In this document: piece after piece, positions 7,961 to 57,022 of the stretch
Layout of the letters: the number at the start of each line of letters is the position of its first letter
Position numbering within the stretch: the first letter of the stretch is position 1
Origin: Copromyces sp. CBS 386.78
Taxonomy: Eukaryota > Ascomycota > Sordariomycetes > Sordariales > Sordariaceae
Length of the DNA stretch: 64,000 nt
Direction: 5' to 3'
Assembly (NCBI GenBank): GCA_030685235.1
Contig: MU839223.1
Span: 44,535-108,534, forward strand
Made by a program: the position numbers and the translations under genes
Notes under the pieces: model-generated
The model's database searches: none
Told to the model about the DNA's origin: nothing
Seen by the model: the letters and a program-made list of their open reading frames with translations, nothing else

Positions 7961-8257
7961 TGAAGAGAAAATTCACTCCATATGGAAAATATGTTATGGA
8001 CGGCACGTTTGGTGGATGAAAAGGAGATGTACAAAAAGATGCAAGAAGCGATTTTGGGATGGAAAAGGAAAAAGATTGAGAGGACGTTGGAATAAACACG
8101 TGGATCCGAACGATGACAGTTCCGCTTCCGTGCATGGCCCGACCAGGGGGTATCCCCACCTGAAGGGCGATCGGCCATCATCAGGCGCCCAAAGTCCATG
8201 TGTTGACGATAATCATTGTCCAAAGCATTGATAAAAACCCATCATCACTTAGCTACC

Positions 8258-33883: not shown

Positions 33884-34101
33884 TGTAACGGGCATGGTAC
33901 AACAGTACGTGTAAAGATGATGTATTGGATTAAGATGGCCTACTAATCTACTGTGTGGAGGCCGGTCTGACTAAATACAGGATACTAGACTAGATCGGCT
34001 AGGCTTACGCCTGCCGTAGTCGGGTAGCTAGTGCTTAGACTAAGTAAGTGTATATAGTACGTACTATACTATGTTTACCCTAATCCTAGGGTGTACTTAC
34101 A
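33884..34101 (-). repeat. 3' LTR (left)
   Basis: 218 bp, bounded by ATTGG on the left and the purine tract on the right. It matches the right LTR in length, and most differences are C/T or G/A transitions. Confidence 0.93.
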
Positions 34102-34179
34102 ATTTGCCCCCCCTAAAAATGCGATGCGCCCTCGCGAGCTAAGTCTAAGATATAAAGTATTGTTATGTAGTTGTATTTT

Positions 34180-34296
34180 TCTTCTTGTTCTCAAAATCTC
34201 CTAGAAGAGTTCCGGCTTCCTCTCCTAGCTGTTTTAAAGTCGCCTAGTGTTCGTATTCAGCGCCTAGTCCTTCGTATCCTACTAGGTACCTTCTAG
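34180..34296 (-). pseudogene. Chromodomain remnant of the retroelement integrase
   Basis: The minus-strand frame carries the YLV-x-Y-x-GLG-x-E pattern of a chromodomain, followed by a TAG (34244-34246) where a Trp is expected. Trp TGG to TAG is a CpA to TpA change on the plus strand, the RIP preference. Chromodomains direct integration towards methylated-histone chromatin. Confidence 0.7.
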
Positions 34297-37200
34297 CCTT
34301 TTCTCTCAAAATAACCCGTTTATAATTTTGAGCTACTACCGGTCCGGCTTACGGTAATTATTTATTATAAACGTTAAATAGTATTAGTTCGAAATAATCG
34401 ACGGAATAACGTTATATATCTTTTAAGTCGGGGGTAATTCTAATTTATACGCCAACCGCCCGACTCGCTTAACAATTCTTAATAATTTTACGTATTACGG
34501 CCTAAATTTCCGTAGTTCTATCGCCTTGGGTACTATATAACTTTTATAGAGGCGCAATAGGATTCGATTACCTATATTAAAAAACCGCGGTTAACGTTGC
34601 TTATTATAATTATATTTAGTATTTATTACTGCTAATTCGATACTATTTTAAATAGAGATATATTAATCGGGCAATTTAACGCCTAGTATCGCCTCCTTAC
34701 CGTCAATTAAATTTAAGACTAAATTTAGGGTAAATCTTAAAGTTACTTCGTTTAAACTTACTCCTATTATTAATAATTTAATATTATTATATTCGAATTA
34801 AAATTATAGGATAATTTTATCTTAGCCGCTAAATTTTTTAAGACAGTTAATATAATACCTAAACGCGCTTTAAATAATTTAAATTAGACGTTCGGTTATT
34901 TTATTTATTTATAGATAATATACCGTCGAATATAATAATTTTATCCCGAATTTATATTAATACTTTATTTAGAATTTGGATAGAAATTTGGGATCCCGGT
35001 TTAAAATTATTACTTTCGGGGTACTTTAATTATAAAATAGTAAGGCTATATATAAAGTATCCGCCTATTATTTTATAATTTACGTCGTTTTACTTAAAAT
35101 TAATAGGATTTATTTAGTAAATTTATTTACTATTATTATTATAGTATTATATCCTTTATTAAATATTAGGAGTCCTAAAATAAAATTAATATTAATTATA
35201 TAGTACGAATAAAGTGGGCCGATAATCGGTTATATATTTCCGTATAATTTATATTTCTTCTTATTAAAAATTTAATAATTTAGGCATCCTTTAAAATAGC
35301 GTTTAAATTCCTATATCCTGCGTAGTATATAGAATTAATTTAAGTAGGATATTAAACAATTAAAGTTGAGGTAGTTTTAATTATAAATAGTGTCGAAGAT
35401 TTCTAAGTAATAGATTTTAGGTATATAAAGTCGCTTCTCTCCTCCGTTTTTAGTTTTTTATAGTAGGCCGTTTCGCTATTTAAATAGTAATATTATTATA
35501 TTATAGCCTAAAATTAAGTTAGCGCTTATTATTTAAATTAATTACGCCTAGAATAAATTTATCTTATAGCTGTTAATTATTTTATATTAGAAGTTCGAAT
35601 TTATTTAAATTAAGGTTATTATAAGTTTTTATTATAGGTTGAATACGATTTCGGGATTGGGTACGCCGTTTTAATAAAATACTTAGTATATTATCTATTA
35701 TTCGTCCGAATCGTCTAGGAAACGTTCGAATCCGCCTTCCGCAATCGAATCTCTAGGTTTTAGGTTATTACTTCGATACAATTTCGATAGGGCGTCTAAT
35801 ATAATATAAAATTTACTAAGTTTATAGATAATATTAATATTACTTTTGAATATATTAGCGTATTCTATAACTTTTAGAAATTTCTTATTTAATATATTTA
35901 ACGATATAGAATTAATAATATCCGTACTTTAACGGATTAGGTTAACGATAGTTTTATAGTCGGTATATATAGTAATTAGTGGGATTCGAGTCGCGTTAAT
36001 TTATTTGCGGTATTTGGTGAGGGTTTAAATTAAGTTTAAAACTTTTATTTTTATTAATTAATATTATTTTTCGGACGCTGTTAAAATTTTAGAGATAAAT
36101 GCGATATTTTATACGGATTTACGTAGGGGGTACGTAGTAATTAAGTTTAAATTTGGATCCTAGAATTAATTAATTTTATTATTTTTAATGTAGTATATTT
36201 CGATGCCGATGCCGTATTTAGAAACGTTAAAATCGATAAATAGCGGTCTCGTAAATATAAAAATTTGAAGGGTAGTATTCTTAATTAACGCCGTTTTTAT
36301 AGCATTAAAGGACGCTAATTCTTTTTATATAGGGAAGGCTAGAATTATTGCTCCTATTTAAATTTTACGCTTAACGCTTTTATAACTATATTAATATAGT
36401 ATTATAATCTTCCTTTTTTTAAAAAGATTAATAAGGATATTATATAGTAGAATATTCTTTCGTAAGTAGGTCGTTGAGCCGATAAAGTAATTTAGTTGGG
36501 CTAATATTATTAAGAAGGCTAGTTTGGAAATCGCTATTAGTCTTTTTTAAATTATCGATATTTCAAAGTTGTTAACGAAGCGGCTTAAAATTATTTGCGT
36601 TAGGGAAGGCTACGAAGGTTTTTAACGGCTTAATAAATATATTTCGTTCGCGGAAGTATTAAAGGATTTAATGTAAATCTTTAATATACTATTCTAAAGT
36701 TATTAAATTAATTATAATATTATTGTAATAGAATTCCGCGGCCTTAATATCTGAAAGTATTAAATCTATTTAGTATTAAACGTAGGCGTTTAAATTTCTA
36801 TAGTTTATTATTGCGTAATTGAATGTAAACTGCCCTTCGGAGGTTGTAATTGTAAATGCCTATTTCGATTCGGGGTAGATTCGCTATTAATAGTAAAAAG
36901 TAATGGCGTTTATAACGGTAATAAAGTTTGCGTTCTTAGCGGCGATATTGCCGATAATCTCTTTTTAAGTCTTTATCAGGTAGGCGTTAAGGATAATATT
37001 TTTATTGAGGGTTTGTATGTTAACGATTATCCGGCCTTTTTTTATACCGTTTAGTGTTATTTTCTACGCTACGAATATTTGGAACGAGAACGGGACTTAG
37101 TATTTAGTTCTGCTAATTTTCCCGTTTTCGAAGAGTTTCTTAATTTAATTTTGGATAATATCCCTTATTTTTGGTCCCTATAGGTAGACTTTTATATATT

Positions 37201-40200
37201 TTAGTATTTTTATATACTAGTCGGGCTTGAGGTTAACGTATATTTATTCGTCTTATAGTATATTTACGAAGCCTTTATTTTTAAAGATGTCTTTAAATTC
37301 GTTAATTAATTTGGATATTGCCTTTGTAACTTTAGGGTTTGAGTTGTAGATTCGGATCCTAATTTTATACGTATAGATTCGTAGTTTAATAATTTTGGTT
37401 AAATCTAGTGCGTATTTCTCGGGCGCGTAGTATGCGAAGGCTATAGCTTCTATTCTATTTTATTTACTAACTTCTGCCGCTAGGTAGTTCGGATTAATTA
37501 ATATAAGATGGCCGAATTGTTAATTATTATAAATTTTAATATAGTAAAGGTAAAGATTATAGACGGTAATTGTTTTTAGTAATCCGGTTATTAATAAAGT
37601 ATAAGTTCCAAAATTATTTTCGCGATTTGTTGGTTTAAAAATATAGTCTTATAAATTATTTACTTCGGCGTGGTTAATAATTAACGCTATAGAAGATTTG
37701 GGGGTAAATTAAATCGGCCTAGCCGTGCGAACGTTAACGTTAAATTTCTTACCTACCTTTATTTCTATCGGGATTTCGATTTTATAAGAATTAATATAAG
37801 CGTAATATTTTAATATAAGGATATCTATTCCTTTAAGATTTAGGATGTTTATATTAATTAATAAACGGGTAGTTAAGTCGTTAACGAGGGAAACTTCCCG
37901 TTCGATTCTAGCTATTATTCGCTATTTTAAATTTTCGAAGTCCTAGCCTTAAAAGTATATTAGTAAAATAATGTAGTTTTATAATTTATAACGGTTATTA
38001 TTAATTCTTCGTATTAATAGCGGAGTCGACTTTTTTTTAATAGGGAGGTTTAAATAGAATTTATTAATTTAACGCCTATCGGCGAAGGATTGTAAATAAC
38101 CTATATCCGTATATACGTTGTATTTAATAGAATAATTATTAGGATTAAGTATAATTTAAAATTGTAAGTAAGTCTAGGTTTTAAAGCCGAAACTTATATT
38201 AATATTAAACTTTACATTAATTATTAATCTTTTAATAGGCAATAACGGTTCCTTATTTAACGCGCCCTCTAATATTGCCTCTATTATTGAGGGCGCTAGC
38301 TGTTTCCCGGCTGGGTTTGCCGTTGAGGTTAGGCTTTAGGGGGATTTGTAATTGCGTTAATCGCCATTCTATTATTGGTATATATCGCCTCGAAGAGTCT
38401 AGCGGTAGATTTGACTTTCCTGTAATGTAATACGGTGTATTAATAGAATTTATTTCCGCTAGGGAAATTTTGAAGGTAGTAATAGTATTAATATACGGCC
38501 GGAGCGCTTTTTATAGTTGCGAAATAATACGCGTCTTAGGCCTCGTTATAAACGTAATTATCGTTAATGTAATTCGTATTTAAATTATTAGTAAGTAAGT
38601 ATTCGTTTATTTCGATTACGTTTTTAATATAAGTTTAATAAAATTCGGTAAATTTAGGAGCTATTTCGTTAATTGCTTACTTAATGTTAGCGTAGTATCC
38701 TTTACTTCTATTAGGGGGGGCCGGTAGTCGACGATTCTTAGGAATTAGAAGTTACCGCGGTCGATTAGCCGGGTTAGAATTACCGTACGAAATCGGGTTA
38801 AAATTATTATAAGGGGTATATATAAGCCTATTCGCAATTTAATTCTAAGTTTAATTTAATTAATTCGAAGTTTGAAGTTAATTAATTTAATTTAAGTATT
38901 TAATTTAATTATAAATCGGGTTAACATAATTATAATTCTAATTATTAAGATTCTATTTATTAAAGCCGCTTTATTAATTTTAGTTGCCGTAATTATTTTA
39001 ACGTTGAAATTGAACTTTTAATAGATTAGAAGCTAATTTCTAACGTTAAACCCTACGTTTTAAAACGCTCTCCCTATTTTAAACGTTTTTAAAGAAGGCG
39101 CTTAATATTATATTTATTTTTAATTTATTTAATTCGGATTAAATTTCGCCGTTAAAAGTTTTAAAAATAGCGATTATTTAAGCGTATTCTAGGAAATTAT
39201 AAGCTCTAGCATTCTTAATAATTATTTAAATAAATGAAATAATATTTTTCCTATTTACTATATTGTATAAAGTGAATTTAGATTTACGTAAATAATTTAT
39301 AACGTTTAAATAGTCGATTTTAAAGCGTTTTTTCAATTTATTATAAATAATTTCAATTCGTCCTATTAATAAAAGCTTTCAATTATCGTTAAAAAGGACG
39401 TAAGAATGCTAAACTAGCGCTGGGCCTTATAAATATTAAATTTAGACTTTTTAAACTTCCCTTTCGCTATAAATCTTTTCGAGGGTAAGAAGTTTATTAT
39501 AGAACGCGTATACGTCGTAGTATTTAGTATTTTTCCTATCGGATATAATTCTTATATCCGATAAATTATTAAGAGAGGGGTCGAAATATCCGATATCCGA
39601 AGCTCTTAATAAGGATTAATAAAGAAGGTTATTTATTAGTTAAGCGGTAATAATAGGGGACTTAATTCTATACTTAACGAAGGTTTATATAATTAAGTTG
39701 GCCGTATTTTAATTAGAGGCTACTTTTATTCTTTCGAAGGCGGCGGCTAATAAATTGGCCTACTCTTCGTTAATTAGTATAATTTCCGTAGACTATAGGG
39801 ATATTAATTCCGTAGCTATATTTAATTCCTCTTCTTCGTTAACGGTAGATTAGAATCGTTAAATTTAATTTTATTAATTTTAATTTTAAATTAAAAAGGA
39901 TGCGGGGAAATTTCCTAAAATTATCGTTAATTGAAATTGACTTACGGAAATCGATAGTAGACTTGTAAAAGTCGATAGTTGGCTTATTAACTTCAAGTCT
40001 AGCTTCGAAGTCGAATTTAATTTAAGGTTCTTAGTTTAAAGGTTTTGAAATCTATAGAGTAAGTAGACGCCCTATATTAGGCTTCGGTCAATATTACTTA
40101 ATTTTTATAGAATACTAGTATTAAATTTAGTGTCCCCATTAAATTTAGTATTATTATTAAATTTAATATTATTATTAAATTTAACGTTATTATTAAGCGT

Positions 40201-41227
40201 AAAGTTAAAATTCTAAATTTAATTGTAGTCCGCGAAGGATTAGTCTTAGAGTAGGCGGGGCTTAATTTACGTTCGGTTTCCCGTCCCAATTACCCTAGGC
40301 CCGACTTAGCTATATTTAAATTCAAGGTTATAAAGTACTTAATTTTTAAGTATAGATATAAATTCGTTATTAGCTTACTCTAAAACGTTAGGCCGAATTT
40401 TATTAGTTAATCGAATTAGTAAATTTGCGAATTCGTTTGGGCTTAATAATTTATGGATGCGAGAGACCGGTTGGGAAGGTTTTAGGGTAGAAAATCCCAA
40501 TAAGCTTAATAATAGAGGCCGACTTAATGACTGAAACCGATTTAATAGTTAACTTATTAATAAAAGTCGGCTAGATTAATAGGGCTCGCCCGAGGGTGTA
40601 GTTAATGGGACCTCCTTAGCGGATTGCGGGGGCGGGGTAATTGTAGTACTAGTACTAACGATAGCGGCCTCTCTAGCGGAAATTTAGAGTTCAAGGAAGT
40701 TGGGTAAGCTTCGCTACTAGGCGAGGAAAGTCGCGAAGGATTACTTCTTGGTAGCTTAGTTAGTTGGGTAAGATTCCTCTCTCGGAGGGCTATCGGTGAG
40801 GATTTCGGGATCGAAATCTGGTTAATATTATCGAACTTTTTCGAAATCTTCGTCTATGATTTTAATACCGTAGGGGTAGCCTACTAGATAAAAGTGTAGT
40901 AATTGACGAGTACGTTGACGGGGATTAACTGATATTAGGGCGTTAAAGCTTAGAAGTATATTAGCGTTAAGTTTACTAGTAATAGATGTAGATTTAGAAA
41001 GTTTAGTATTACGGTTTTTAAGTTAGCCGAAGTCCTACGGGTTGATTTTGGGAGGGGGGTAGCTGTCTGCGTTTATAAGTAGAGCGTTAAGCTTGGGGTG
41101 ACGGACTTGCGTTTGGTTAATTTACGAGCCTAATTTGAAAGTCGGCGCGGTAAAGTCTAGTAGTTCGACTAATATAAGTATTATCGATAATCTTAGTCGT
41201 TAATTCGATAATATATAGGTATTAGAA

Positions 41228-41445
41228 TGTAATGGGTATAGTATAACAATACGTACAAAGATGATATATTAGATTAAGATAGCCTACTAATTTACTGTAT
41301 AGAGGCCGGTCTGACTAAATATAGGATACCAGACTAGATCGGTTAGGCTTACGCCTACCGTAGTCGGGTAGCCAATGCTCAGACTAAGCAGGTGCACATG
41401 GTACGTACTGTACTGTGCTTACCCTAATCCTAGGGTGCACTCACA
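41228..41445 (-). repeat. 5' LTR (right)
   Basis: 218 bp, starting TGTAATGGGTATAG in plus-strand coordinates and ending CTCACA, followed by the target duplication ATTGG at 41446-41450. Confidence 0.93.
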
Positions 41446-41450
41446 ATTGG

Positions 41451-41830
41451 AGTGCCGATCTTTACGAGCAGTCATGTCCGGACTCTAAAGACTGCAGAAA
41501 TCAGGTCACCACAAACCTTGGACTTCAGCTGGCTGCAAGGACGCAACCATAACAGTTTGAGAGATGTGTAAGAGTGGTTGAAACCAATGAGGAGAAATTA
41601 ATAGATTGATTGGTCTGAGGAAGAAAGGGAGAGTCCCAAGGAGCTGCTAGGTCCTGAACCTACCCTAGATACCCGAAAGTTGAAGAAGAAGGTGGGGGAC
41701 GAACATGAATCCACTGGTCTCAGAGCGCCGATCTTTACGAGCAGTCTGGACTCTAAAGACTGCAGAAATCAGGTCACCACAAACCTTGGACTTCAGCTGG
41801 CTGCAAGGACGCAACCATAACTGTTTACAT
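41451..41830. repeat. Two further copies of the ~105-bp unit around a dispersed repeat
   Basis: 41451-41555 and 41722-41830 share CCGATCTTTACGAGCAGTC, then CTGCAGAAATCAGGTCACCA and ACTTCAGCTGGCTGCAAGG. The first is directly continuous with the right target duplication. Between them lies the dispersed repeat 41569-41724. Confidence 0.85.
41569..41724 (-). repeat. Dispersed repeat, copy 2 (inverted relative to 148-297)
   Basis: Its reverse complement aligns with 148-297, sharing TTCGTCCCCCACCTTCTTCT, ACTTTCGGGTAT, GGTTCAGGACC and TTGGTTTCAACCACTCTTACA. Small indels occur between these blocks. Here it is embedded between two copies of the 105-bp unit. Confidence 0.75.
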
Positions 41831-42089
41831 GTGAGAGATGGTTGACTGTCGCTGTCCGTAATATGCATGATGGTGTGGTGAGGTTGCCGGTTGCTTGTAA
41901 TTACCGGGGCACATGCTTCTATGCAGACTGTTTCTCTGGGACGCATCACTTCCATTGTATAGCTGTGGTCGGCACGGTGCTACGCTTTAACGCTGGAGAT
42001 GGTGTGCGAGTAATCGGGCAAACTTGGGGGAATCCCGTTAGTGGACAAACGGAGAGAAGTTCCGGCTTCTTACTGCTACCTTAAGAACG

Positions 42090-44128
42090 ACCGATTGTAA
42101 CCGTCGAGTCAGACAACGGTTAATTCAAGTCGTCGCCGAGGTGCCGAGCTTCCCGTTCCTCAACATGCCGACCGTGCAGCCCGTCACGGGCGACGCGACC
42201 ATGGACACTCTCATGGCGCTCGTCGGCTCCAAATGGTTCAGTCCCCTAGACGGCGCCTTCTGGGTCGGCGCCGGTCTGACCGTCTCGGCGTTGGAGATGC
42301 TCGACATCACGGCCGTGTTGGTTGTCGAATGGGGCCTCGACGTGAAGCTGGGCATCTTTGCCGTGGCCGTATGCGACGTCCCCTCCACCGACGCACCTGC
42401 CAAGCTCGCCCACGCCGAGCTCGGCATCCTCGCTACGGTCGACTTTGGCCTCGGCCTAGCTAAGTTCGAGGCCCAGCTGGCCCCGTCCTCCTACATCTTG
42501 GACCCCCTCTGCCACCTTTCGGGCGGCTTCGCACTCTACTACTGGTTCAAGGACGGGCCCCAGTAGACTAAAGGCGACTGGGTCTTTACCCTAGGCGGCT
42601 ATTACCGCCTCTACAAGCCGCCGCCGCAGTACCCGGTCCCGCCTCGCTTGTAAATCGAATGGTCCCTCGGCCCGCTGTCCATCACGGGGCAGGCCTACTT
42701 CGCCATCACGCCGAACGTGGCTATGGCTGGCGGCGCCCTCCACGCCTACATGGGTATCGGGGTGCTCGAGGCCTTCTTCGACGCTTGGATCGACTTCCTT
42801 ATCAACTTCAAGCCCTTCTGGTTCCTCGGTAGTAGTGGCGTCAGCGTCGGCGTGCGTTACTCGCTGGACCTGCTCTTCGTGACGATGCACATCAGCGTCG
42901 AGATCGGCGCCACGCTGACTGTGTATGGCCCGCCCATCGGCGGCATCTGCCACGTCGACTTCTGGGTGTTCGGCTTCGACATCCACTTCGGCGCCGTCCA
43001 GGGCTCCGGCACGGGGGCCATTGGGGTGTTAGATTTCTTCAACCTTGCGCTGCAGAAGGGCAGTCCTGCGGCTGCGTCGTCGGCTCCGCAGCCGTTGCTG
43101 TTTCAGTGCCAGACCGGCATGTTGCCGTCCGGCGGAGCAGCAGCTTCGGAGAGGGCGAGAGCGAGGCAAGAGAGGAGGAGGCTGCGGAGGAGGCAGCTTG
43201 TCCAGAGTCAGAGCAGGCCGGCCCAGCGTGTTGTTGAGCTCGGTGATGATGGTTACGAGGTGAGGGAAAGCGACGACAACGATGTCCCAATCTGGGAAGT
43301 CAAAGGCGGCACCTTCTCCTTCGCCATTAATGCCGTCTTCGCGATGAGTAAGGTGACCGTGTACCCCGAGGGCAAGCACCCCGTGGTCCTCGATGCGCCG
43401 CCCAAAGACACGTCGCCCATTATGTCGCGGCCGATGCACCTCGATAAGACCATGCCGGCCATTACATCGGAACTCAAGGTGGAGATGAAAATCGCGACAG
43501 GCGACAGCAAGGTGGATTACGAGCCGCAGTGGGAACTGCGGCCGGTGATTAGCTCTGTGCCCAAGGCGCTGTGGGATGCCTGTGAGTCCATGTCGCCCCA
43601 TTCCATGTCTCTGTGTTTTCGTTCGCGACTGCCCCGTCTGCTAACAAATACCTTACCAACGTAGACGACGCCTCCACCGACCCCATGGGCGGCTCTCAAT
43701 CCATGCTTGACACCTCGACGGGAGGCACCGTCCCCCTCATGATGGGGGTCCTCTTCGTCGCGCCCAAGCCCATCCTCTCGCACGACAAGGTGCAGCCCTT
43801 CAACGCCGTGCTCTCCCAGCTACAGAGCGTCTTCCCCAAGGCAGAGACGCCGCCGTTCCCAGACTCGACGACGGCGGAGAACAAGGCCTGGTTGCCCGTT
43901 CCGCCCGCGAAGCCGGACCCGAGCAATCCGGCAAGGGACTGGGTGGCCGTTCAAAAAGCTTGGAAGGATCCCGGGTTGGGGGCCGATGCGGGAGCCGCGG
44001 CTGTGGCAGGGTGGGCGAAGACGATGGGGTGGGATACTGGAGCTGTGGACGACAGTGTCCCCGTGAGGTTAGTTGAGGGGCTGCAGGTGTTGTATGTTAA
44101 TGCGCCTCTGGTAGCTCAGGCTGCGTAG
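42090..44128 (+). pseudogene. 5'-truncated DUF6603-family gene with RIP-type stops
   Basis: One frame runs from about 42090 through PSFPFLNMPTVQPVTGD (42144 onward) to 43581. An 83-nt intron (43582-43664, branch GCTAAC) leads to exon 43665-44128. GGFALYYWFKDGPQ, GDWVFTLGGYYRLYKPPPQYPVPPRL and SITGQAYFAITPNVAMAGGALHA, then FKPFWFLGSSGVSVGVRYSLDL and GPPIGGICHVDFWVFGFDIHFG, are the C-terminal half of DUF6603 proteins as I know them. These are usually more than 1,000 residues long and of unknown function. The N-terminal half is missing. Two in-frame stops, TAG at 42564-42566 and TAA at 42651-42653, interrupt otherwise intact sequence. Both fit CAG to TAG and CAA to TAA, the CpA to TpA changes of RIP. 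Confidence 0.85.
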
Positions 44129-46640: not shown

Positions 46641-47252
46641 CTAAACCAACGCTGGCTCAGCTTCGCGCTTGTTGGTGCCGCGGGACCCCCAAACGTACGC
46701 AGGCTCGGCATTGACAGTGGCAGGCTCTGGGGAAGCTTCACGCTTGTTGGTACCGCGAGAGCCCCAGACGTCCGCAGGCTCGGCGTTGACAGTGGCAGGC
46801 TCTGGGGAAGCTTCGCGCTTGTTGGTGCCGCGGGACCCCCAAACGTACGCAGGCTCGGCGTTGACAGTGGCAGGCTCTGGGGAAGCTTCGCGCTTGTTGG
46901 TGCCGCGGGAGCCCCAAACGTACGCAGGCTCGGCGTTGACAGTGGCAGGCTCTGGAGAAGCTTCGCGCTTGTTGGTGCCGCGGGACCCCCAAACGTACGC
47001 AGGCTCGGCGTTGACAGTGGCAGGCCCTGGGGAAGCTTCGCGCTTGTTGGTGCCGCGGGAGCCCCAAACGTACGCAGGCTCGGCGTTGACAGTGGCAGGC
47101 CCTGGTGAAGCTTCGCGCCTGTTGGTACCACGAGAGCCCCAGACGTAGGCGGGTTCGGCTTGGGTGGATGCGGGGATGGCGGCAGCCGAGGCAAGAAGAG
47201 GGAGGAGCAGAGCCCCGAGGGTGATGGAGGCCGTGGTCTTCATGGTTTGCAA
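46641..47252 (-). CDS. Secreted Kex2-repeat precursor peptide (candidate dikaritin RiPP precursor)
   Basis: Single exon of 203 residues. The start MQTMKTTASITLGALLLPLLASAAAIPAS is a clear signal peptide (an in-frame ATG at 47243 is an alternative). Seven tandem 25-residue units follow, of the form AEPAYVWGSRGTNKR plus EASPEPATVN; the first has RR, the sixth has Asp in place of the core Tyr, and the last ends AEPALV. Each KR or RR is a Kex2 site, and the EA-SP-EP after it suits stepwise dipeptidyl-peptidase trimming. This is the architecture of UstA-type precursors for ustiloxin-like cyclic peptides, with a YVWG core comparable to YAIG/YVIG. Three UstYa-family genes lie within 7 kb. Processing and cyclisation are inferred. 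An alpha-pheromone precursor has the same general layout, but the repeat lacks the Cys/Trp pheromone core of this order. Confidence 0.85.
   Translation of the reverse strand: MQTMKTTASITLGALLLPLLASAAAIPASTQAEPAYVWGSRGTNRREASPGPATVNAEPAYVWGSRGTNKREASPGPATVNAEPAYVWGSRGTNKREASPEPATVNAEPAYVWGSRGTNKREASPEPATVNAEPAYVWGSRGTNKREASPEPATVNAEPADVWGSRGTNKREASPEPATVNAEPAYVWGSRGTNKREAEPALV
46650..47160 (-). repeat. 75-bp tandem repeat encoding the peptide units
   Basis: Units are exactly 75 bp and nearly identical in DNA, including silent positions. Most units alternate between GGG and GGC for the core Gly (GGACCCCC versus GGAGCCCC on the plus strand), which indicates amplification of a two-unit, 150-bp block. 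Confidence 0.9.
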
Positions 47253-48534
47253 AGAGAAGAAGGCAGTTGGAGGTGTGCTAATTGATGTAGGTAAGGTAGG
47301 TATGCTTTCGAGTTGAGACGTCGAGAATGGGCTACCTTATATCGTATGAGGACGAGCTGGTCCTTCCTCCATGGTCCACCATGGCAATGCCGATAACTGA
47401 CTTGTTTGTCCGACACCGTTCATACCTACCATCGAAAAAAGTCTCGCCTTTCCACCCCAGCGCCGGAAGAGGAAGGTGATGAAGGACTGTCAGCCTCAAA
47501 GCTTGGACTTGTGGCTCTGTAGCTTCTATCGCCCCTTGCCTCAGTCGGATCCGGTCACGATCTTCAGCTCTTGTTGATAGTCCTCGCGGGGTAAAGGAAC
47601 GCTATCGGCGGTATCGAGGCAATAATTACCTACCTGACACATGGAGATGACTACGACGTTGCTTAATGCTTACCTGGAGGTAACTGCTGGCCTATCGGAG
47701 ATACTAAACCCCTTGGGTTTACGTTTATCTGGTTCAACTAGAGCAATACAGTACCTCTACGGTAGTGTCATGCAGCTCGCTGTCTTCCCTTTCCCTGGTT
47801 CCCCCCTCTTACCCGGTCCCCCGGAGCTGAGAGGCCCAAGTCTGCCACCGGGGCGATTTTCTGTCAGCACATCGGCCGTAGTGCTGGCTGGTCGACTATA
47901 GTAGAAACCCTAGTAAATGCAACTAATCCGGACTCTATGAGGAGTCTCAGAAAATGTTGCATTTATTAGGCATTTTGCATTTAATAGGGTCCCAGTCACA
48001 AACAAATCGGTAAATCCGGGCCGCCAGCATACTTGCATATACTAGGTAACTTTATATGTAGTTGCATTTTCTGGGAGTTGCATTTACTAGGGTTTCTACC
48101 ATATCACCAACCTTCCGGAAGCCTGCTGACAGCACAGTAAGACTGGAGATCATGAGAGTCTGGACGGTGTCTGTGTCTGGACTTTCATCATCGTCGTGGG
48201 GTTGTGCGCTTAGGCACTGCTTACACAGTACAAAGCATCACAATGCTGATTCGCGCTGTAATGACGCTAACACATGCTGTCAAAGTCTCGTATTCGCGCT
48301 GCAGCTTCACTTCCAGCTTCCTCTTTGGATTTCATTCGCGATACACGGTACGCAGAAAAACCTTGGCAGAAACATCACAGTTCACAAGGTGCTGGTCAGA
48401 GTGAGGTACTTTGTGTATGTCATATCGCTTGGCCTTCGATGGCCAAAAAGGTGTAATATCAAGGGGGTGTCTTGGACCTGAGAAGCGCAAGTAGGAATCA
48501 GAAATCCCAAGTCATTTCCTTCAGAGTTTCCATC
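47253..48534. other. Promoter region between precursor and first UstYa gene
   Basis: Divergent spacer of about 1.3 kb. It contains a MITE at 47901-48099 and no gene. It presumably holds the promoters of both flanking genes. Confidence 0.55.
47901..48099. mobile_element. MITE with perfect 24-bp terminal inverted repeats
   Basis: Begins GTAGAAACCCTAGTAAATGC (24-bp arm to 47924) and ends with the exact reverse complement (48076-48099). Total length is 199 bp and it is non-coding. Internal TTGCATTT words recur. The target duplication is not clear; TA or CTATA are possible on the left. It lies in the shared promoter region of the peptide cluster. Confidence 0.88.
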
Positions 48535-49409
48535 ATGCCCTCTTCTATTGGGGAACAATCTTCTTCATCTTCAGACACCATCATGGACGAAGACAAGCAA
48601 TACCTCCTTCGAAACGGGCTCATGTCTGAAGACGGTCTTTCGAGGCATGGTTCGAGAGGAAGCAGGTGGCTCAACTGGAACGTCGGTGCACTTGTTGCCA
48701 ACGTTCTGCTCTTGATCGCCGGCGTTGCCGTTTGGGCTCGGGTCAACTCTTCTCTGAAGAAGTTCAACTGTGGCTCGAAGCCGGATTTCTTTGAGCCAGA
48801 TCGTGAGTTTTGCCCTTCAGAATCCTCAAACGTCAAGTCCATTGCTAACGCAAGGTTGTAGTCGTCTTTGACACCCCCGTGGTCTTCCAACCTTACGGCT
48901 TCTACGGCGGAGTTAGCAACAGCTCCAACGATGCCTGGAAGCGCTTGATGCCTCCCGGTGACGGCATCGTCGAAATCCCAAACGAACACACCTACGATCT
49001 GCCTCCTAGCTTACCCGCACCCAACAGTCCAAACACGAGCAAGGTGTACGGCATCAGCATGTTCCACCAGCTGCACTGTCTCAGCTTTATCCGGTACGCC
49101 TACGAGCCGGAGTCCATCAAGGACTATCCTGCCGACGAGGTCGTTTACCACCGTGACCACTGCATTGACTACATCCGCCAGGCCATCATGTGTGCTGGCG
49201 ATGTGACTTTTGAGCCACTCACGGAGGTGGGCATCAACGGCATTGGAGCAACGCACATGTGTCGCAGCTATGATAAGATGTTTGCTTGGGCATATAAGCA
49301 TCGGTCGGATAAAAAGGACGATGGGTATCCCCCGGGGAAGGTCACGCATACACCAGCGGACAGGAATATGTTGGAGAGTCCGCATTCGCATGTTCATGGT
49401 GATCACTAG
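48535..49409 (+). CDS. UstYa-family (DUF3328) protein 1
   Basis: Exons 48535-48802 and 48862-49409, with a 59-nt intron (GTGAGT, branch GCTAAC), give 271 residues. A Ser-rich cytoplasmic N-terminus precedes one transmembrane segment (VGALVANVLLLIAGVAVW). The lumenal part has the paired family motifs FHQLHCLSF and HRDHCIDYIRQAI. UstYa and UstYb homologues carry out oxidative macrocyclisation of dikaritin peptides, and these HxxHC motifs are required there. Divergent from the precursor gene, it is the best candidate to modify it. Family membership is strong; substrate is inferred. Confidence 0.88.
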
Positions 49410-49977
49410 GTAATAAGGGACAATCCAGTGTGCGGAAATAGGGGCTGTGTTTTAGGGTACTTTCAGGGGCTTTATTTACTCCGTTCTTCACCACAGTCAT
49501 CAACAAAAACTTCTGTACATTGCATTGCCTCTTTTCACCATGATGAATTGCAATCTTGAGGCATGGTCTTTGATTGAAAGCTTGTAGCTTTTTTCGCGCT
49601 GGAACATCGATGTCTTATCCCCGGACATTGAAAGCGCTGCAACCACGATCCTGTTCAACTACAAGGTCCTTTGCCTCCATCAAGGGGATGTAACTGTTTA
49701 CTGGACATCACTGACTCACCTGTTTTAGTGCTGATTTCTGAGGTTACAGCGGACGCTTGGTAGGCGCGCACCGCCCAGCGCTGGTTACTCCGAAAAAGGA
49801 AAGTCGTTAACTGCATGGTTTCATGCGGCGGAAGTATTTCAGGTCCTCATTCCCCCTTGCCTTCTTCACGATATCAGTTCCTGCCCTTTACACTTTCACC
49901 GAGCAAAGAAACTCCAAACAATCCATTAAACATCACCGCCTTAAATCAACACATAACCCACCTCACCACCAACCACC
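49410..49977. other. Intergenic, no gene seen
   Basis: About 570 bp between UstYa-1 and the acetyltransferase gene, ending in a CA/CT-rich leader just before the ATG. Confidence 0.5.
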
Positions 49978-50667
49978 ATGTCGGACCCCACCTTCAAAAT
50001 CGAGACCCCCCGTCTCCTCATCTCCTACCTCCAACCCGACCTCGATTCGCACTGCGACTTCCTCGTCGCCCTCTATAATACCCCCGAATTCATTGCCAGC
50101 AATGGAAACATAAAGACACCCATCACCACCCGCGACGTCGCGCGCCGTCAACTCGAGGGCCGCTTCCGCGCCGAACACGCCCGCAATGGCTACGGCACCT
50201 ACTTATTCTCTCTCCGCAACCCTGCAAACCCAGACGACCTGGCCTCCGCTACGCCAATCGGTACGGTGTCGCTGATGCGCGGGGATGAGCCTGGATCTTA
50301 TAGCGCGCCGGATTTGGGGTTTGCGATTTTGTCCGAGTACATGAAGAAGGGGTACACGAAAGAGGCGGCACAGGGATTAATAGAGTATATCGAGAGGGTG
50401 CAGGGGGTGAAGGATATCCTAGGACTTCATAACCCGGCGAATAAGGCCAGTGGTGCGGTATTTAGAAGCTTGGGTTTTATCGACGTGGGATTGAGGCAAC
50501 TATTGGTGTTTGGACCGCATGTGGTTGGGCAGGTGTGGATAAAGAAGGGGATGAGTGAGGATGTTAGTGTTTATGGGTTGCCAAAGGAGGCGCCGGCCGC
50601 TGTGGCGGTGCCGGAGAGGATTGCGGAGGAGGTCGTGAAGGAGTCTGTGGGTGCGGTTGCGGTTTGA
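49978..50667 (+). CDS. GNAT acetyltransferase (RimJ/RimL-like)
   Basis: Single exon of 229 residues. IETPRLLISYLQPDL is the usual first strand and helix of Acetyltransf_3 proteins. GYGTYLFSL, PIGTVSLMRG, DLGFAILSEYMKKGYTKEAAQGLIEYIE (acetyl-CoA pyrophosphate-binding turn near KKGYTKEA) and NKASGAVFRSLGF complete the fold. The C-terminal 35 residues are Val/Ala-rich and non-conserved. These enzymes transfer acetyl from acetyl-CoA to an amine or alpha-amino group. It sits between two UstYa genes, so an N-acetyl tailoring role for a peptide product is possible, but many such genes are unrelated to their neighbours. Confidence 0.85.
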   Translation: MSDPTFKIETPRLLISYLQPDLDSHCDFLVALYNTPEFIASNGNIKTPITTRDVARRQLEGRFRAEHARNGYGTYLFSLRNPANPDDLASATPIGTVSLMRGDEPGSYSAPDLGFAILSEYMKKGYTKEAAQGLIEYIERVQGVKDILGLHNPANKASGAVFRSLGFIDVGLRQLLVFGPHVVGQVWIKKGMSEDVSVYGLPKEAPAAVAVPERIAEEVVKESVGAVAV

Positions 50668-51012
50668 GATGGGTTGGTAACGGTGATGATGTGCATGTCT
50701 TTTGCGTGTTCGAAGTTGCAAGAAATTCCGTGTGCTCAATCTTTCCGTTTTTGGGGAACAAACTTGGGTTCTTTCTCCTTGTACGTATCCCTTTGCCCCC
50801 TTGACCTTTCGTGTCTATCAGCATCGTCCCCCGTCTTGCACTTCTTGTCCTTTTCCCCTTTCGAGCTCGTGTTTCTTTGGAAGTGAATGCGGTGCTCTCA
50901 AGTAGGTATCTAGCCTATGAGCTCGAGAGGCCTACAACATCACCCCTGGTCAAAGTTCAGCCCATTTCCTATGACAACGGTTTCTATTTCATTGACCAAC
51001 TAGGTACTACTT
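50668..51012. other. Short convergent intergenic segment
   Basis: About 345 bp between the 3' ends of the acetyltransferase and UstYa-2 genes. It should hold both 3' UTRs. Nothing else was seen. Confidence 0.5.
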
Positions 51013-52010
51013 CTACATGTACCGACGATTCTGCCACGTCAGGTTATACTTGGCCTCTTGTTCAATCTGGAACTGTCTCAACTTGTCAAAGTCAATGCAA
51101 TCATGTTCAACACCCCATCCGGTTACGGACGTTGCATGGCCCTTTCCAACCTTGATGGGACTGTTTCCCTCAATGATCAGATCACCGCCGCAGGAGATTC
51201 CCTGGCGCAAGTACTCGAAGCAATGTTCGACGTGGACCTTCCATTTGAAGTCCTCGTCTGGGTCCGGTCCAAGTTCCTCGTCGAGGTTGTCCCTCTTTCG
51301 CATGGTCATTCCGGACTCGGAGTTCTTGTTCTTTTCGACGTAATATTGGTAGCGAATCATGTTCTGAAGGAACATTTTATCAGACTTGGTTCGGGAAAGG
51401 GTGACGGAACTGGGTAACAGGGAGGTTCCTACCAGACAGTGCAGCTGGTGAAGAATGGAGATGACGTAGAAGTCTTGTGGCTTCGGGACCGGAGTGTTTG
51501 GGTGATGGTATGGGGCGACGATTCCCTGAGGAAGTCCCCATTTCTTGGGGTTCTCAATCCAGACGGCATCATGGCCTGTCGGACATGGACTCGGTCAGTT
51601 CATGATCATATTTAGCTTAGGCGATACTAACCAGCGACCAGTTTGTCCCATTCCTGCTCAACCTCCGTTGTGCCACCGATATACCGTTCATCTGGTTGAA
51701 ACACCTTTTTCACAGGAATGAACACCTCCTTCGGGATGGGGGTGTTGGAGTATACATGCAGAGGTCCATTGTTTCTTGGTGTGGTCTTGTACCAGAATGC
51801 CACTGTTGTGAGCCATCCCAAACAGAGAAAAGATACTGCTATGAGAAGAATGCGATTGTTTCGCCGCTCTCTAGCAAAGGCGTGGCTTCGAATTGGTGCA
51901 TCGAGCTGGACGTCCTCAAGCTTTTCGTCATCATCTGAGCGAATCCGCCCATAGTCCGGATTGTCTGGTGAGCGAACGGACTCTAAGATGGACTTGATCC
52001 TGGACGGCAT
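51013..52010 (-). CDS. UstYa-family (DUF3328) protein 2
   Basis: Three exons: 52010-51632 (MPSRIKSILESVR...), 51575-51433 and 51363-51013. The introns are 56 and 69 nt and the sum is 873 nt, or 290 residues. One transmembrane segment (ILLIAVSFLCLGWLTTVAFW) follows a charged N-terminus. The catalytic motifs are LHQLHCL, at the end of exon 2, and VEHCFEYLRQGISC. Family features such as VFIPVKKVFQPDERYIG and a terminal WQNRRY are present. A paralogue of the genes at 48.5 and 52.9 kb; the charged loop between the two motifs is longer here. Role as for protein 1, substrate inferred. Confidence 0.88.
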
Positions 52011-52874
52011 CGTGTTGGGGAGTTGGATGTTGTACAGCTGGACTTGAGTGGTTGGCCCTGACAGAGATGGAGCAGAGCACGATGAGATATCCCCAATAGA
52101 ACATGTAAGCAACTTTGGTTTACAAGACATGGCAAATGCCAAGTCAATACCGAGCTCACACTTGTGCTAGGCGCTGCAAGCTCGTAAGCTCAGTGTATAA
52201 TACTACCGCAAGGATTCATTGGATACCTGTACACTTACATAGTATACCGGAGGCCGATAACACGGACCGGACTGTGACAAACAGCGGTACAAAGAGGGAT
52301 CTAGACGCCAGTCTTGTGACACTCCCCCGCAAACGCCACCTCGCTTGCGAAAATCAGATAATGCTAAAAGCCATTTCTCCGCTCAAATGTATGTAACTGC
52401 ATTTCACTTCTTTGGAGCTGAATCTGGGAGACCTCTGGAGGAGAGGAGGAGAAGAACAGACAATGAACAAAAGTGACAAATGTGGAGCACAGTGACCAAA
52501 AACTGGGCGGGGCTTCTGCGGACCCCCACGGCCCGCAGTCGGTTGGCGGCCCGGGCCGTGCGCCTCTCGTACGTCCTTGCTATGAACGATGCACGTTTTC
52601 TAACATTGCGTTCATAGCCGTTCTGGGCTGTGGATGTTTCAGGAAGGTGTCAAACGCGCCGGGCCGATTAACGCGAGTTACACGGGTTGAACGGCCTTGC
52701 TGACATATGATGCGATATCGCAGTTATTTGACTTTCGTCCTGATGATGTTGACCTGAAGGGGACGGGAGGTAAGAGCGCCCCCTCCTTCCAACGTCCTGC
52801 GCCATCTTTGCACTTTCTGGTCTTTCGCTTCGTCAGGCGCAGTCAAGTTTCCAGCATCTCTGCCTCCAGTCGTC
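52011..52874. other. Divergent promoter region between UstYa-2 and UstYa-3
   Basis: About 860 bp, probably a bidirectional promoter, since the two genes are transcribed away from each other. No gene was seen. Confidence 0.5.
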
Positions 52875-53804
52875 ATGTACTCCCAAGATCTAACAGCCGA
52901 GAAATATCTCCAGACGGACAATGAAACTGGAAGTCTTCTGAGCGCACACGGGCACTTGGACTCCAGTCGAGAATCAGACAAAAGCCTTGATATCCATATA
53001 CCAATTCGCAGACAGTCACGGTGGAGGGAACATGTCATCCGCGGGGCCATTGCCATCTTCTTCATTACAGTCGGTGTTTCTGTTGGATTCTTCCTGACAA
53101 CAAGCTCCAACTCCAAAGAGCCAACGTTGAAAGACTTTGGCATCAACCCAAAGACGCCCTTACCACGAGAGATCTTCATCGACAGACGAGATGTCCCCTT
53201 TATCCCCCACAAGGAGTTCATCGGGCCGTCAAAGGAAGCTGATAGGAATTGGGACCGGATAACGGTGGGTAAGTCGGCTTTGAACATCGCACAGAGAAAA
53301 AAACTAGGTCGTATCTGACAAGAACACAAACTCTACATAGGCTCCGACACCATCTACCTCCAAAACCCCTCAGAATACGGCCTCCACGACCCCGGCATCC
53401 GCGCCTCCTTCTTCATGTTCAACACCCCTCCTCCCTCCGCCGCCTCTCTCCCCAATCTCAACAACTTCTACGTTTTAAATACCATGCACCAACTGCACTG
53501 TGTAAACGTCGCCCGGCAGCGATACAACCAGCTCGTGTACAAGGGGATTAACGCCCTCTCTGGCTCGTTCGTGGACAACGACTGGCTGGAACATTTGGAG
53601 CATTGCTTCGAGTATTTGAGGCTGAGCATCATGTGCGCGGATTACATGACGCTGGAGAGCGATTCACCACCGGGAAGCCCAGAGGAATATACCAAGGGGA
53701 ACTTGGGATGGGGGGTGGTACATAGTTGTATTAACTGGGAGAGGTTGATGGAGTTTCAGAGGGAGATGGTGGGGGTGTATAATGGGACTTGGGACAGGTC
53801 TTAG
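52875..53804 (+). CDS. UstYa-family (DUF3328) protein 3
   Basis: Exons 52875-53268 and 53341-53804, with a 72-nt intron (GTAAGT), give 285 residues. Ser/Glu-rich N-terminus, one membrane segment (VIRGAIAIFFITVGVSVGFFL), then PLPREIFIDRRDVPFIPHKEFIG. The motif pair MHQLHCVNVAR and LEHCFEYLRLSIMC carries the family's His and Cys residues. It is closest in layout to protein 2, including the same phase of the first intron. Three paralogues within 5.5 kb of each other and near a Kex2-repeat precursor support a peptide cluster. Confidence 0.88.
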
Positions 53805-55161: not shown

Positions 55162-55914
55162 TTAGGACCCAGGGGCAATTTGTACGTTAAAATTCGTCAG
55201 AAGCGATATAAAGTCGTTGGCAATTACAGTTGCTAGCGCGCAGGGGCAGTCACACCCCCCTACACAAGCACTCGTAGTCGAAGAAGGTGTCCCGTCGGGA
55301 CATATAGGGAGGCCGGCAGTTAGAAGCGCCAGAAGTGCAAGTTGTAACCCCGAGCAGTTACCCCCCCCTACACAACATGAAGCATTCGTAGTCGAAGAAG
55401 GTGTCCCGTCGTTTCCGGTAGCACAAGGGGCACACGGACATTGTCCGGTTAGACGCGGCAGAATTGCAAGTAGTGCCGCCGCGCCGTTTCCTAAACAACA
55501 TGCACTGGAAGCATTCGTACAGGTAGTCGGAGAAGGTGTCCCGTCGTTTCCGGTGGTGTTGACGACGCAGGCAGTATGACGCAAGTAAGCTTCGATAGAG
55601 GCATGGTCGGAGAGGTTGTACTTGGACCAGTCAAGTTGGGTAGTAGGGAGGCCGGTAGGGGCACACGAACATGGTCCGCTTAGAATCCCCAGAATTACAA
55701 GTAGTAAGGTAAACGCCGGTGAACAACATGAAGCATTCGTAGTCGAACAAGATGGGAGGCCGGGAGGGGCAGCGCTGGTAGGGGCAGCGCCGGTAAGGGC
55801 AACGCTGGTAGGGGTAGCGCCGGTAGGGGCATCGCCGGTAGGGGCAGCGCCGGTAAGGGCAACGCCGATAAAGGCAACGCCGGTAAGAGCAGTAACGGTG
55901 GGAAGAAACTTCAT
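55162..55914 (-). CDS. Secreted, Cys-rich, modular protein of unknown function
   Basis: Single exon. The start at 55914 (MKFLPTVTALTGVAFIGVALTG) gives a signal peptide; an upstream in-frame ATG (55992) would spoil it. 250 residues. An Ala/Thr/Pro repeat (about 18-50) is encoded by a 15-bp DNA repeat. Then come roughly four modules of the form TTNASCC, then a Leu-rich hydrophobic stretch, then G-x-C-x-C (for example FTLLLVILGILSGPCSC and AALLAILPRLTGQCPC). They are separated by GNDGTPSSTT linkers. Cys doublets alternating with hydrophobic stretches recall hydrophobins, but the spacing does not match. No Kex2 sites occur. It may be a cell-wall or surface-active protein. The family is not recognised. 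Confidence 0.6.
   Translation of the reverse strand: MKFLPTVTALTGVAFIGVALTGAAPTGDAPTGATPTSVALTGAAPTSAAPPGLPSCSTTNASCCSPAFTLLLVILGILSGPCSCAPTGLPTTQLDWSKYNLSDHASIEAYLRHTACVVNTTGNDGTPSPTTCTNASSACCLGNGAAALLAILPRLTGQCPCAPCATGNDGTPSSTTNASCCVGGGNCSGLQLALLALLTAGLPICPDGTPSSTTSACVGGCDCPCALATVIANDFISLLTNFNVQIAPGS
55770..55895. repeat. 15-bp minisatellite in the Cys-rich gene
   Basis: About eight degenerate units of GGTAGGGGCAGCGCC, in frame, encoding Ala/Thr/Pro/Gly repeats just after the signal peptide. Confidence 0.85.
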
Positions 55915-57022
55915 GGTAGCAACTTTGGAGATGATGTGAAAGGCTGAGTGGCGAGTTTGGTGGTTGAAGTTGGAAGAGGAGAAAGGAAGCAAAGGGAAGG
56001 AGGTAGGAAAGTTGGAGGGTCTCTGCTATTTAACAAAGATGGAGAAGGTGATGATAAGAAAAAAGAAAGATGAGCTGGATTTTCAGAGTAAACCTCGCCC
56101 TTATATACACGACAATCAACTATACGCTGCCCTAGTAACCGAGTAACCGACGAAGTATCAGAGCCATACCAACAAAGATACAGACCTCTACCGTGGAAAC
56201 TCGCCAGATTGCACGTGGCAGTGCAAACCTCCACTGCCAGAAAACCAGGTTATCTAGGCAGAATAAGCACAGTCCTGTAAGGCTCACGTCCGGCTTCCTG
56301 TACAGTAATGTGTGTGTGAAAAGATGGAGGGCAATGTCGCTGGTCAGGGGCTTGTCAACTCGGCCTTTTCGACTGTGCCACTTGCTGGGAGCACATTAGG
56401 TAGGTATACTGCTTCCTGTACTTACTGTCAGGCGCTCAAAAAGGGTTAGAGATTTACCAATCTGGCGAGTTTCTACGGTACACCATGCCAAGCATCACGA
56501 GATTACTGGCTTACTGCGCTCTGTGCGTTCGTTATGCTAGTAAGCCAATATATCGTACTACTGTACTGCGCTGGGCGTTCGGTATCGCTTTAAACCACAT
56601 ACCTTACTATTGCATTACTAAGGTATGCAGGGTATACAGCTGCGGTGCTCTCATACTGGCATAAACATGGGTTTTTACGCAGTATGAAAGCGAAGAACGC
56701 AGTAAGAACTCCAACGATTTCTGGCCTTCAAAGGCAGCCCATTGCGGGAGTTGGAAGTCGACTGGGCGAAGTGCAGCGACTTGCAGATTTTTACTGGAAA
56801 ACAGCCGAACGCAGAAAACACAGCAGTATGCCGTTGCTTACCTAATGCCATATCAACTTCCTTACTGTTACTGGCATACTGGGCTTCCGAACATAGCATC
56901 AATTACAAACTCGCAACATGCTTTCCACAAGATCTAACGCACCTGCCAACATAACCCTTCTCCTCTATCCTTTTCCCTCTTCCATACCCTCATCGTCACC
57001 CCTCACTGTCCCATCCAAACAT
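55915..57022. other. Intergenic region with a TACTG/CAGTA-dense block
   Basis: No gene. The right part, 56502-56883, has an unusual density of the reverse-complementary words TACTG and CAGTA (listed separately). Confidence 0.55.
56502..56883. repeat. TACTG/CAGTA-dense, hairpin-prone block
   Basis: I count twelve TACTG or CAGTA words in about 380 bp; random expectation for the two words together is under one. Longer related phrases recur in both orientations: CATACTGGCAT, TTACTGCGC, CGCAGTAAG, GCGTTCGG and CCGAACGC. It may be a decayed inverted-repeat element. Confidence 0.65.

Follow-up and report, generated by a model that had tools for sequence, protein, structure and literature searches.

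The 64,000-nucleotide stretch of the Copromyces sp. CBS 386.78 genome analysed here (the window; contig MU839223.1, positions 44,535 to 108,534 of the forward strand; this 108.5-kb contig is C145 below) contains a gene for a putative secreted repeat precursor and three genes of the UstYa (DUF3328, PF11807) oxidase family (Table 1). The precursor opens with a hydrophobic stretch, MKTTASITLGALLLPLLASAAA, whose best 19-residue segment begins at position 5 with a mean of 2.02, and which resembles a signal peptide by hydropathy only. In the seven units that follow, AEPAYVWGSRGTN precedes RR (unit 1) or KR (units 2–7) and then EASPGPATVN or EASPEPATVN; unit 6 has ADVWG instead of AYVWG and unit 7 terminates in EAEPALV. 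This layout, a signal-peptide-like start and seven units with a Kex2 site after each of the 7 cores, had been described in an earlier inspection of the letters alone (hereafter the sequence-only reading) and is borne out here.

Table 1. Features of the precursor and UstYa locus, in window coordinates.
Feature	Position	Strand	Description
Precursor gene	46641..47243	minus	Intronless open reading frame (ORF) of 200 amino acids; signal-peptide-like start and seven repeat units
Tandem array, 75-base period	46659..47159	minus	Encodes AEPAYVWGSRGTN-[K/R]R-EASP[E/G]PATVN units
Divergent intergenic region precursor/U1	47244..48534		Contains a MITE-like element, 47897-48103
U1, UstYa/DUF3328 oxidase	48535..49409	plus	Exons 48535-48802, 48862-49409; 271 amino acids; PF11807 E=6.1e-26 (spliced)
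GNAT acetyltransferase gene (PF13302)	49978..50667	plus	229 amino acids; Pfam E=7.9e-16
U2, UstYa/DUF3328 oxidase	51013..52010	minus	Exons 52010-51632, 51575-51433, 51363-51013; 290 amino acids; PF11807
U3, UstYa/DUF3328 oxidase	52875..53804	plus	Exons 52875-53268, 53341-53804; 285 amino acids; PF11807 E=1.1e-27 (spliced)

Tandem Repeats Finder describes the array with a period of 75 bases, 6.7 copies and 93% matches, at a score of 855 that is the highest of the 23 rows obtained for the window. When the units are compared with each other, core codons 4–13 have 7 variable columns, 6 of them purely synonymous and one carrying the Tyr-to-Asp change of unit 6, which corresponds to a ratio of non-synonymous to synonymous variation (pN/pS) of 0.038. 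The ratio for the spacer is 0.23 among units 1–6, and 0.63 when the divergent tail of unit 7 is included. The variation among units shows the core to be under purifying selection; since the units are not independent, such arrays being homogenised, the ratios support this without amounting to a formal test. Searched in six frames at E≤10, the 49.8-Mb genome returns no second match to the precursor beyond itself.

The three PF11807 genes lie at most 6.6 kb from the precursor and form with it two divergent pairs, precursor/U1 and U2/U3, as judged from the coordinates. Their models were spliced manually, and all the introns are of the GT/AG type. For U2, the Pfam scan was made on two ORF pieces; one matches PF11807 with E=1e-22 and the other with E=5.5e-05, which at 23.6 bits is just below the curated cut-off of 25. 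According to a motif and hydropathy count, each of the three proteins has a hydrophobic 19-mer beginning at residue 50–57 and two HxxHC motifs, in agreement with the three close UstYa genes with an N-terminal helix and paired HxxHC motifs of the sequence-only reading. U2 and U3 are each other's best match among the stretches searched (32.7%, E=1.9e-45), and a query of the PDB with U2 alone gives no sequence relative at E≤1.

A sole homologue of the precursor, P0001 (E=1.8e-15), was found in the protein database among 114 candidates. It is a 116-residue protein, perhaps cut short, represented by one record only, on an ENA contig of 3,694 bases, and its use as a query brings back itself only among 360 candidates. 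P0001 retains a signal sequence (MKTTATIGALLLPLLASAAVI), the KREA spacer start and, in four units, EPA[Y/F]VWGSR, with F, Y, F and Y in this order; its spacer is different and shorter, and AEA or QEAA stands at the position of GTN in the window. All 11 units (seven in the window, four in P0001) have the same Trp, Gly, Ser and Arg. The core had been delimited beforehand as YVWGSRGTN, of which the first residue turns out to be variable and the tail is replaced. Because GTN is not kept in this one homologue, we take [Y/F]VWGSR to be the probable conserved core, with Trp as its invariant aromatic.

A search with U1 gives 889 candidates, 43 of which are homologues at E≤1e-5, and 40 of the 43 hold the two HxxHC motifs. 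The closest are P0002 (88% identity) and P0003 from Pseudoneurospora amorphoporcata (76%, gaps counted), the latter being identical to U1 at 206/213 ungapped columns, so that the gaps look like the product of a different gene model; others, at 60–63%, come from Apodospora, Rhypophila and Cercophora, and PhomYa (P0042), the homologue named for a studied pathway, is 30% identical. Such conservation of U1 bears on the idea that the cluster has decayed and that the repeat gene is a relic without a product. The Asp of unit 6 and the presence of a MITE-like element between the precursor and U1 would fit decay, but the precursor frame is open, so are the three UstYa models with their introns, and the core shows purifying selection among units; we regard a relic as extremely unlikely.

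The same genome offers several points of comparison. UstYa matches at the exon level number at least 16, lie on 5 of the 273 contigs and can be grouped into 12 genes (four on C121, three on C139, three on C145, and one each on C48 and C53). A repeat scan of the stretches around these genes yields 14 rows, three of which were judged by eye to be precursors, on C145, C121 and C48, the remaining rows being low-complexity, off-frame or antisense readings. A looser scan yields five rows and misses the C48 precursor: it recovers the precursors of C121 and C145, a cysteine-rich repeat at 55634-56029 of the window and, from the C145 array, two readings that are off-frame or antisense. C121 carries a repeat ORF (101519-102121, minus strand) in which VEDYVIPID occurs 15 times. 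A set of four UstYa genes (~108.8–124.7 kb) begins 6.6 kb away from it, and two tyrosinase pieces (121635-122572), out of 11 PF00264 matches in the genome, are found among these genes. Judged by its core and its gene content, this is a phomopsin-type cluster. On C48, a repeat ORF (277294-277911, plus strand) about 1 kb from the UstYa gene contains units such as NDEAWTQIINPTTKR, and Trp-bearing ones, DEAWTQIINPTTKR, EESWTQQIG and EEAWNVDPPPPAKR, which make it a candidate second Trp-rich precursor. Together with the alpha-pheromone gene considered below, these two loci are internal yardsticks within one genome.

The precursor and the UstYa genes might be neighbours by chance, or the substrate of the oxidases might be some other metabolite, whether non-ribosomal or of another kind. 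The family would allow it, as cyclochlorotine, a cyclic peptide, is hydroxylated by the DUF3328 protein CctR and other members are halogenases (PMC12435403; this and the other papers are cited from excerpts). However, a repeat precursor accompanies UstYa genes on three of the five contigs that have them, DUF3328 genes are known to be enriched beside repeat precursors and lie on average 3.09 genes away from them (PMC7329392), and neither a non-ribosomal peptide synthetase nor a polyketide synthase is present among the 20 selected proteins or ORF pieces of 42–64 kb scanned against Pfam. A chance association, or another substrate, thus appears very improbable.

All these results point to a small fungal cluster for a ribosomally synthesised and post-translationally modified peptide, of the Kex2-repeat and UstYa kind. 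We put the probability of this reading at roughly 80%, a figure that applies to the type of cluster and not to a specific bond. It is carried by the gene layout, the motifs, the selection on the core among units and the conservation in one homologue, from which a processing, a modification and a product can be proposed. The locus has the features of ust-RiPS, i.e. of DUF3328-accompanied Kex2-processed repeat proteins (KEPs): a signal peptide according to hydropathy, Kex2-bounded repeats, DUF3328 genes within 15 genes, and HxxHC pairs with a membrane helix in the encoded proteins. In a survey of such proteins, Ascomycota have 5.25 KEPs per strain; of the 5372 KEPs of this phylum, 1647 have a DUF3328 gene within 15 genes, and the number of repeat precursors associated with UstYa reaches 1758 for fungi as a whole (PMC7329392). 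As 1647 Ascomycota precursors near DUF3328 genes are already counted, the locus adds to a known class of UstYa-associated Kex2-repeat precursors and is not a new class, even if its Trp-containing peptide is unusual.

Its place within this class can be specified. Ustiloxin- and phomopsin-type precursors share the motif EDYXI, with Tyr at position 1 and Ile at position 3 (PMC6339444), where the present core has EPAYVWGSR. No tyrosinase (PF00264) match exists on C145, the absence of this enzyme nearby having been rightly pointed out before. Judged from its sequence, the precursor is therefore not of the ustiloxin or phomopsin type in the strict sense, and the earlier label of a dikaritin-type cluster holds for the UstYa-associated Kex2-repeat layout and not for this narrower membership. 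Like UstA and PhomA, the precursor combines a putative signal peptide with numerous repeats bounded by Kex2 sites, has more than one DUF3328 gene in its vicinity and shows a core beginning with Tyr-Val-X-(G/P). It differs from them in that position 3 is Trp and not Ile, EPA replaces ED ahead of Tyr and the spacers are of the KREA type, as well as by the missing tyrosinase and the low identity of U1 to PhomYa. Asperipin-2a is not known to require a tyrosinase. Its system (AprA/AprY) also combines a Kex2-repeat precursor with a UstYa-family cyclase, but with a different core and a single DUF3328 gene compared to three here (PMC7329392). The ust-RiPS surveyed by Umemura in 2020 resemble the locus by their signal peptide, tandem Kex2 repeats and DUF3328 genes within 15 genes, and Trp is present in 20.5% of their repeats; VWG was looked for in the main text describing them and is absent from it (PMC7329392). 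The core was not found in the open-licence literature searched, no fungal title being among the matches listed and supplementary precursor lists lying outside this search, which agrees with its having been announced as new. Only a handful of characterised products of UstYa-associated precursors are named in the excerpted review (PMC9233826). With a defined core in which Trp takes the place of the Ile of ustiloxin and phomopsin, with three oxidases and with a contig devoid of tyrosinase matches, the locus may serve as a compact test of UstYa action on Trp.

The spacers raise the question of a relationship with pheromones. EA stands directly after each of the seven dibasic sites, in the form of EASPGP, EASPEP or EAEPAL, so that Ste13-type dipeptides, EASP(E/G)P or EAEP, stand after each of them as in alpha-pheromone spacers. 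The same holds for P0001, whose three KR sites precede EAGDDK, EAGDDT and EAGEDK, unlike the C121 phomopsin-type precursor, where the residues after the dibasic sites are SSV, GSV, HGS and similar ones and not EA. The core of alpha-pheromone peptides has the motif WC...CW, which is absent from our precursor, as its repeat units contain no Cys. A canonical alpha-pheromone precursor is present elsewhere, on C17 (207814-208251, minus strand), with the cores WCRIHGQSCW and WCQIHGQPCW, the stretches KREAEAEAQWCRIHGQSCW and KREAEAQWCRIHGQSCW, and KREAEA spacers, whose KREA it has in common with the precursor of the window. It was detected as a clustered group of four among the matches listed by a pattern search that gave 128 hits in all, compared to 65 in a reversed control. 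The identification of the window precursor as a mating pheromone was considered and is rejected on account of this gene.

A broader possibility is that of a linear secreted hormone- or pheromone-like peptide, released by Kex2, Kex1 and Ste13, with UstYa genes that serve something else. The EA after every dibasic site argues for it, and KEPs with a Ste13-type signature have been called good hormone candidates (PMC6339444). The C17 gene and the absence of a WC...CW core argue against it, as do the three DUF3328 genes: within 15 genes, such a neighbour is reported for 0/227 yeast alpha-factor KEPs and 3/216 putative fungal pheromone KEPs, though in basidiomycetes one is present for 17/76 homologues of putative pheromones with Ste13 dipeptides (PMC7329392). 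Because of these 17 homologues, the mix of Ste13-type spacers and UstYa enzymes is unusual and not unique. Furthermore, the XA/XP dipeptides of the spacer ahead of AT are EA, SP and EP/GP only. We infer that Ste13 by itself would halt at AT and leave ATVNAEPAYVWGSRGTN, in which Tyr is not exposed; another peptidase would therefore be needed to expose it. On balance, a linear hormone is improbable.

Under the favoured reading of a UstYa-modified repeat peptide, the precursor would enter the secretory pathway and be cleaved by Kex2 and Kex1 at its seven dibasic sites, and a Ste13-type dipeptidyl aminopeptidase would probably remove EA-SP-EP from each spacer. The core-region peptide EPAYVWGSRGTN would be a candidate substrate for the luminal domains of U1–U3. 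These membrane-anchored proteins, presumed dinuclear copper oxidases by analogy with CctR, would oxidise the [Y/F]VWGSR core. In CctR, the paired HxxHC motifs form a binuclear copper centre, O2 and electrons are required, and His or Cys mutations abolish activity (PMC12435403). The likeliest chemistry would be the loss of 2 H with formation of a side-chain bond between core positions 1 and 3. By analogy with the Tyr-Ile bond of ustiloxin and phomopsin, in which the N-terminal Tyr is joined to an internal Ile (PMC9233826; PMC7329392), it would link the Tyr phenol O to the Trp beta-carbon; UstY enzymes are likewise described as closing the ether bridge of asperipin-2a, which joins Tyr-O to the beta-carbon of Phe (PMC12186524). 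A second UstYa protein could possibly add another oxidation. The computed [M+H]+ values of the linear form and of the form lacking 2 H are 1039.4956 and 1037.4799 for YVWGSRGTN, 1110.5327 and 1108.5170 for AYVWGSRGTN, 1792.8613 and 1790.8456 for ATVNAEPAYVWGSRGTN, and 767.3835 and 765.3678 for YVWGSR.

Some of our results, and some published ones, weigh against this reading or against parts of it. No repeat precursor was recognised on two of the five UstYa contigs (C139 and C53, of which 54 kb and 24 kb were scanned). The two divergent promoters have no words in common beyond chance expectation: they share two 9-mers, compared to 6.87 in shuffles, and no 10-mer. The Ste13-type signature is described, in the excerpt of PMC6339444, as absent from precursors of toxic cyclic tetrapeptides of the ustiloxin and phomopsin type and of epichloecyclins. 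Trp is found in 20.5% of DUF3328-accompanied repeats and 24.5% of the others, and is thus not enriched (PMC7329392). Finally, Tyr is not invariant at the first core position, which is Asp in 1/7 units of the window and Phe in 2/4 units of P0001, and a Tyr-phenol crosslink is thereby weakened.

The Tyr1-Trp3 ether, specifically, is thus a tentative proposal, possible by analogy with the known bonds. The alternatives are a Trp-centred bond, a dehydrogenation or a hydroxylation. A Trp-centred bond is a serious alternative, because Tyr is replaceable in the homologue as well as in unit 6 and Trp is never seen replaced. Frequencies across fungi point the other way: 65.6% of the repeat sequences accompanied by DUF3328 contain Tyr, compared to 38.2% of the others (PMC7329392), and, taken with the Trp frequencies, these statistics favour Tyr chemistry.

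One more speculative, and rather unlikely, possibility is that the locus could produce an oxidatively crosslinked hormone-like peptide, from a pheromone-style precursor with Kex2 sites and Ste13 spacers, in which [Y/F]VWGSR is ringed via its invariant Trp by UstYa enzymes. If true, the linear pheromones of fungi and the cyclic toxins of the dikaritin type would be bridged by an intermediate that still exists, and the chemistry of UstYa proteins would come to include a macrocycle centred on Trp. The pheromone-type spacers bear in any case on the hypothesis that such cyclic peptides are derived from linear mating-factor-like precursors (PMC7329392).

Two elements of the locus had not been mentioned in the sequence-only reading, the KREA Ste13-type spacer and the GNAT acetyltransferase gene inside the interval. 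The membership of the latter in the cluster is uncertain because related stretches are present on C61 (218449-227415), where three stretches are 59–82% identical to it, two of them with stops; they are perhaps degraded copies or intron-bearing relatives. The element between the precursor and U1, which resembles a miniature inverted-repeat transposable element (MITE), has 28-base terminal inverted repeats (96%) and four more related copies in the genome, at 75–83% identity, one of them partial.

Further away, a cysteine-rich protein (55162-55917, minus strand), secreted-looking by eye and without a Pfam match at E≤0.01, contains short repeats (GAAPTGDAPTG...); Tandem Repeats Finder detects a 15-base array at 55759-55885. 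The left border of the cluster is an AT-rich island at 34001-42000, with a GC content of 24–35% across 34–41 kb, which is perhaps a mutated repeat region and is followed by a DUF6603 ORF (42654-43661). Past this island, at ~39 kb from the precursor, lies a tryptophan dimethylallyltransferase gene (6572-7972, minus strand; PF11991, E=1.4e-82) that is probably unrelated to the cluster.

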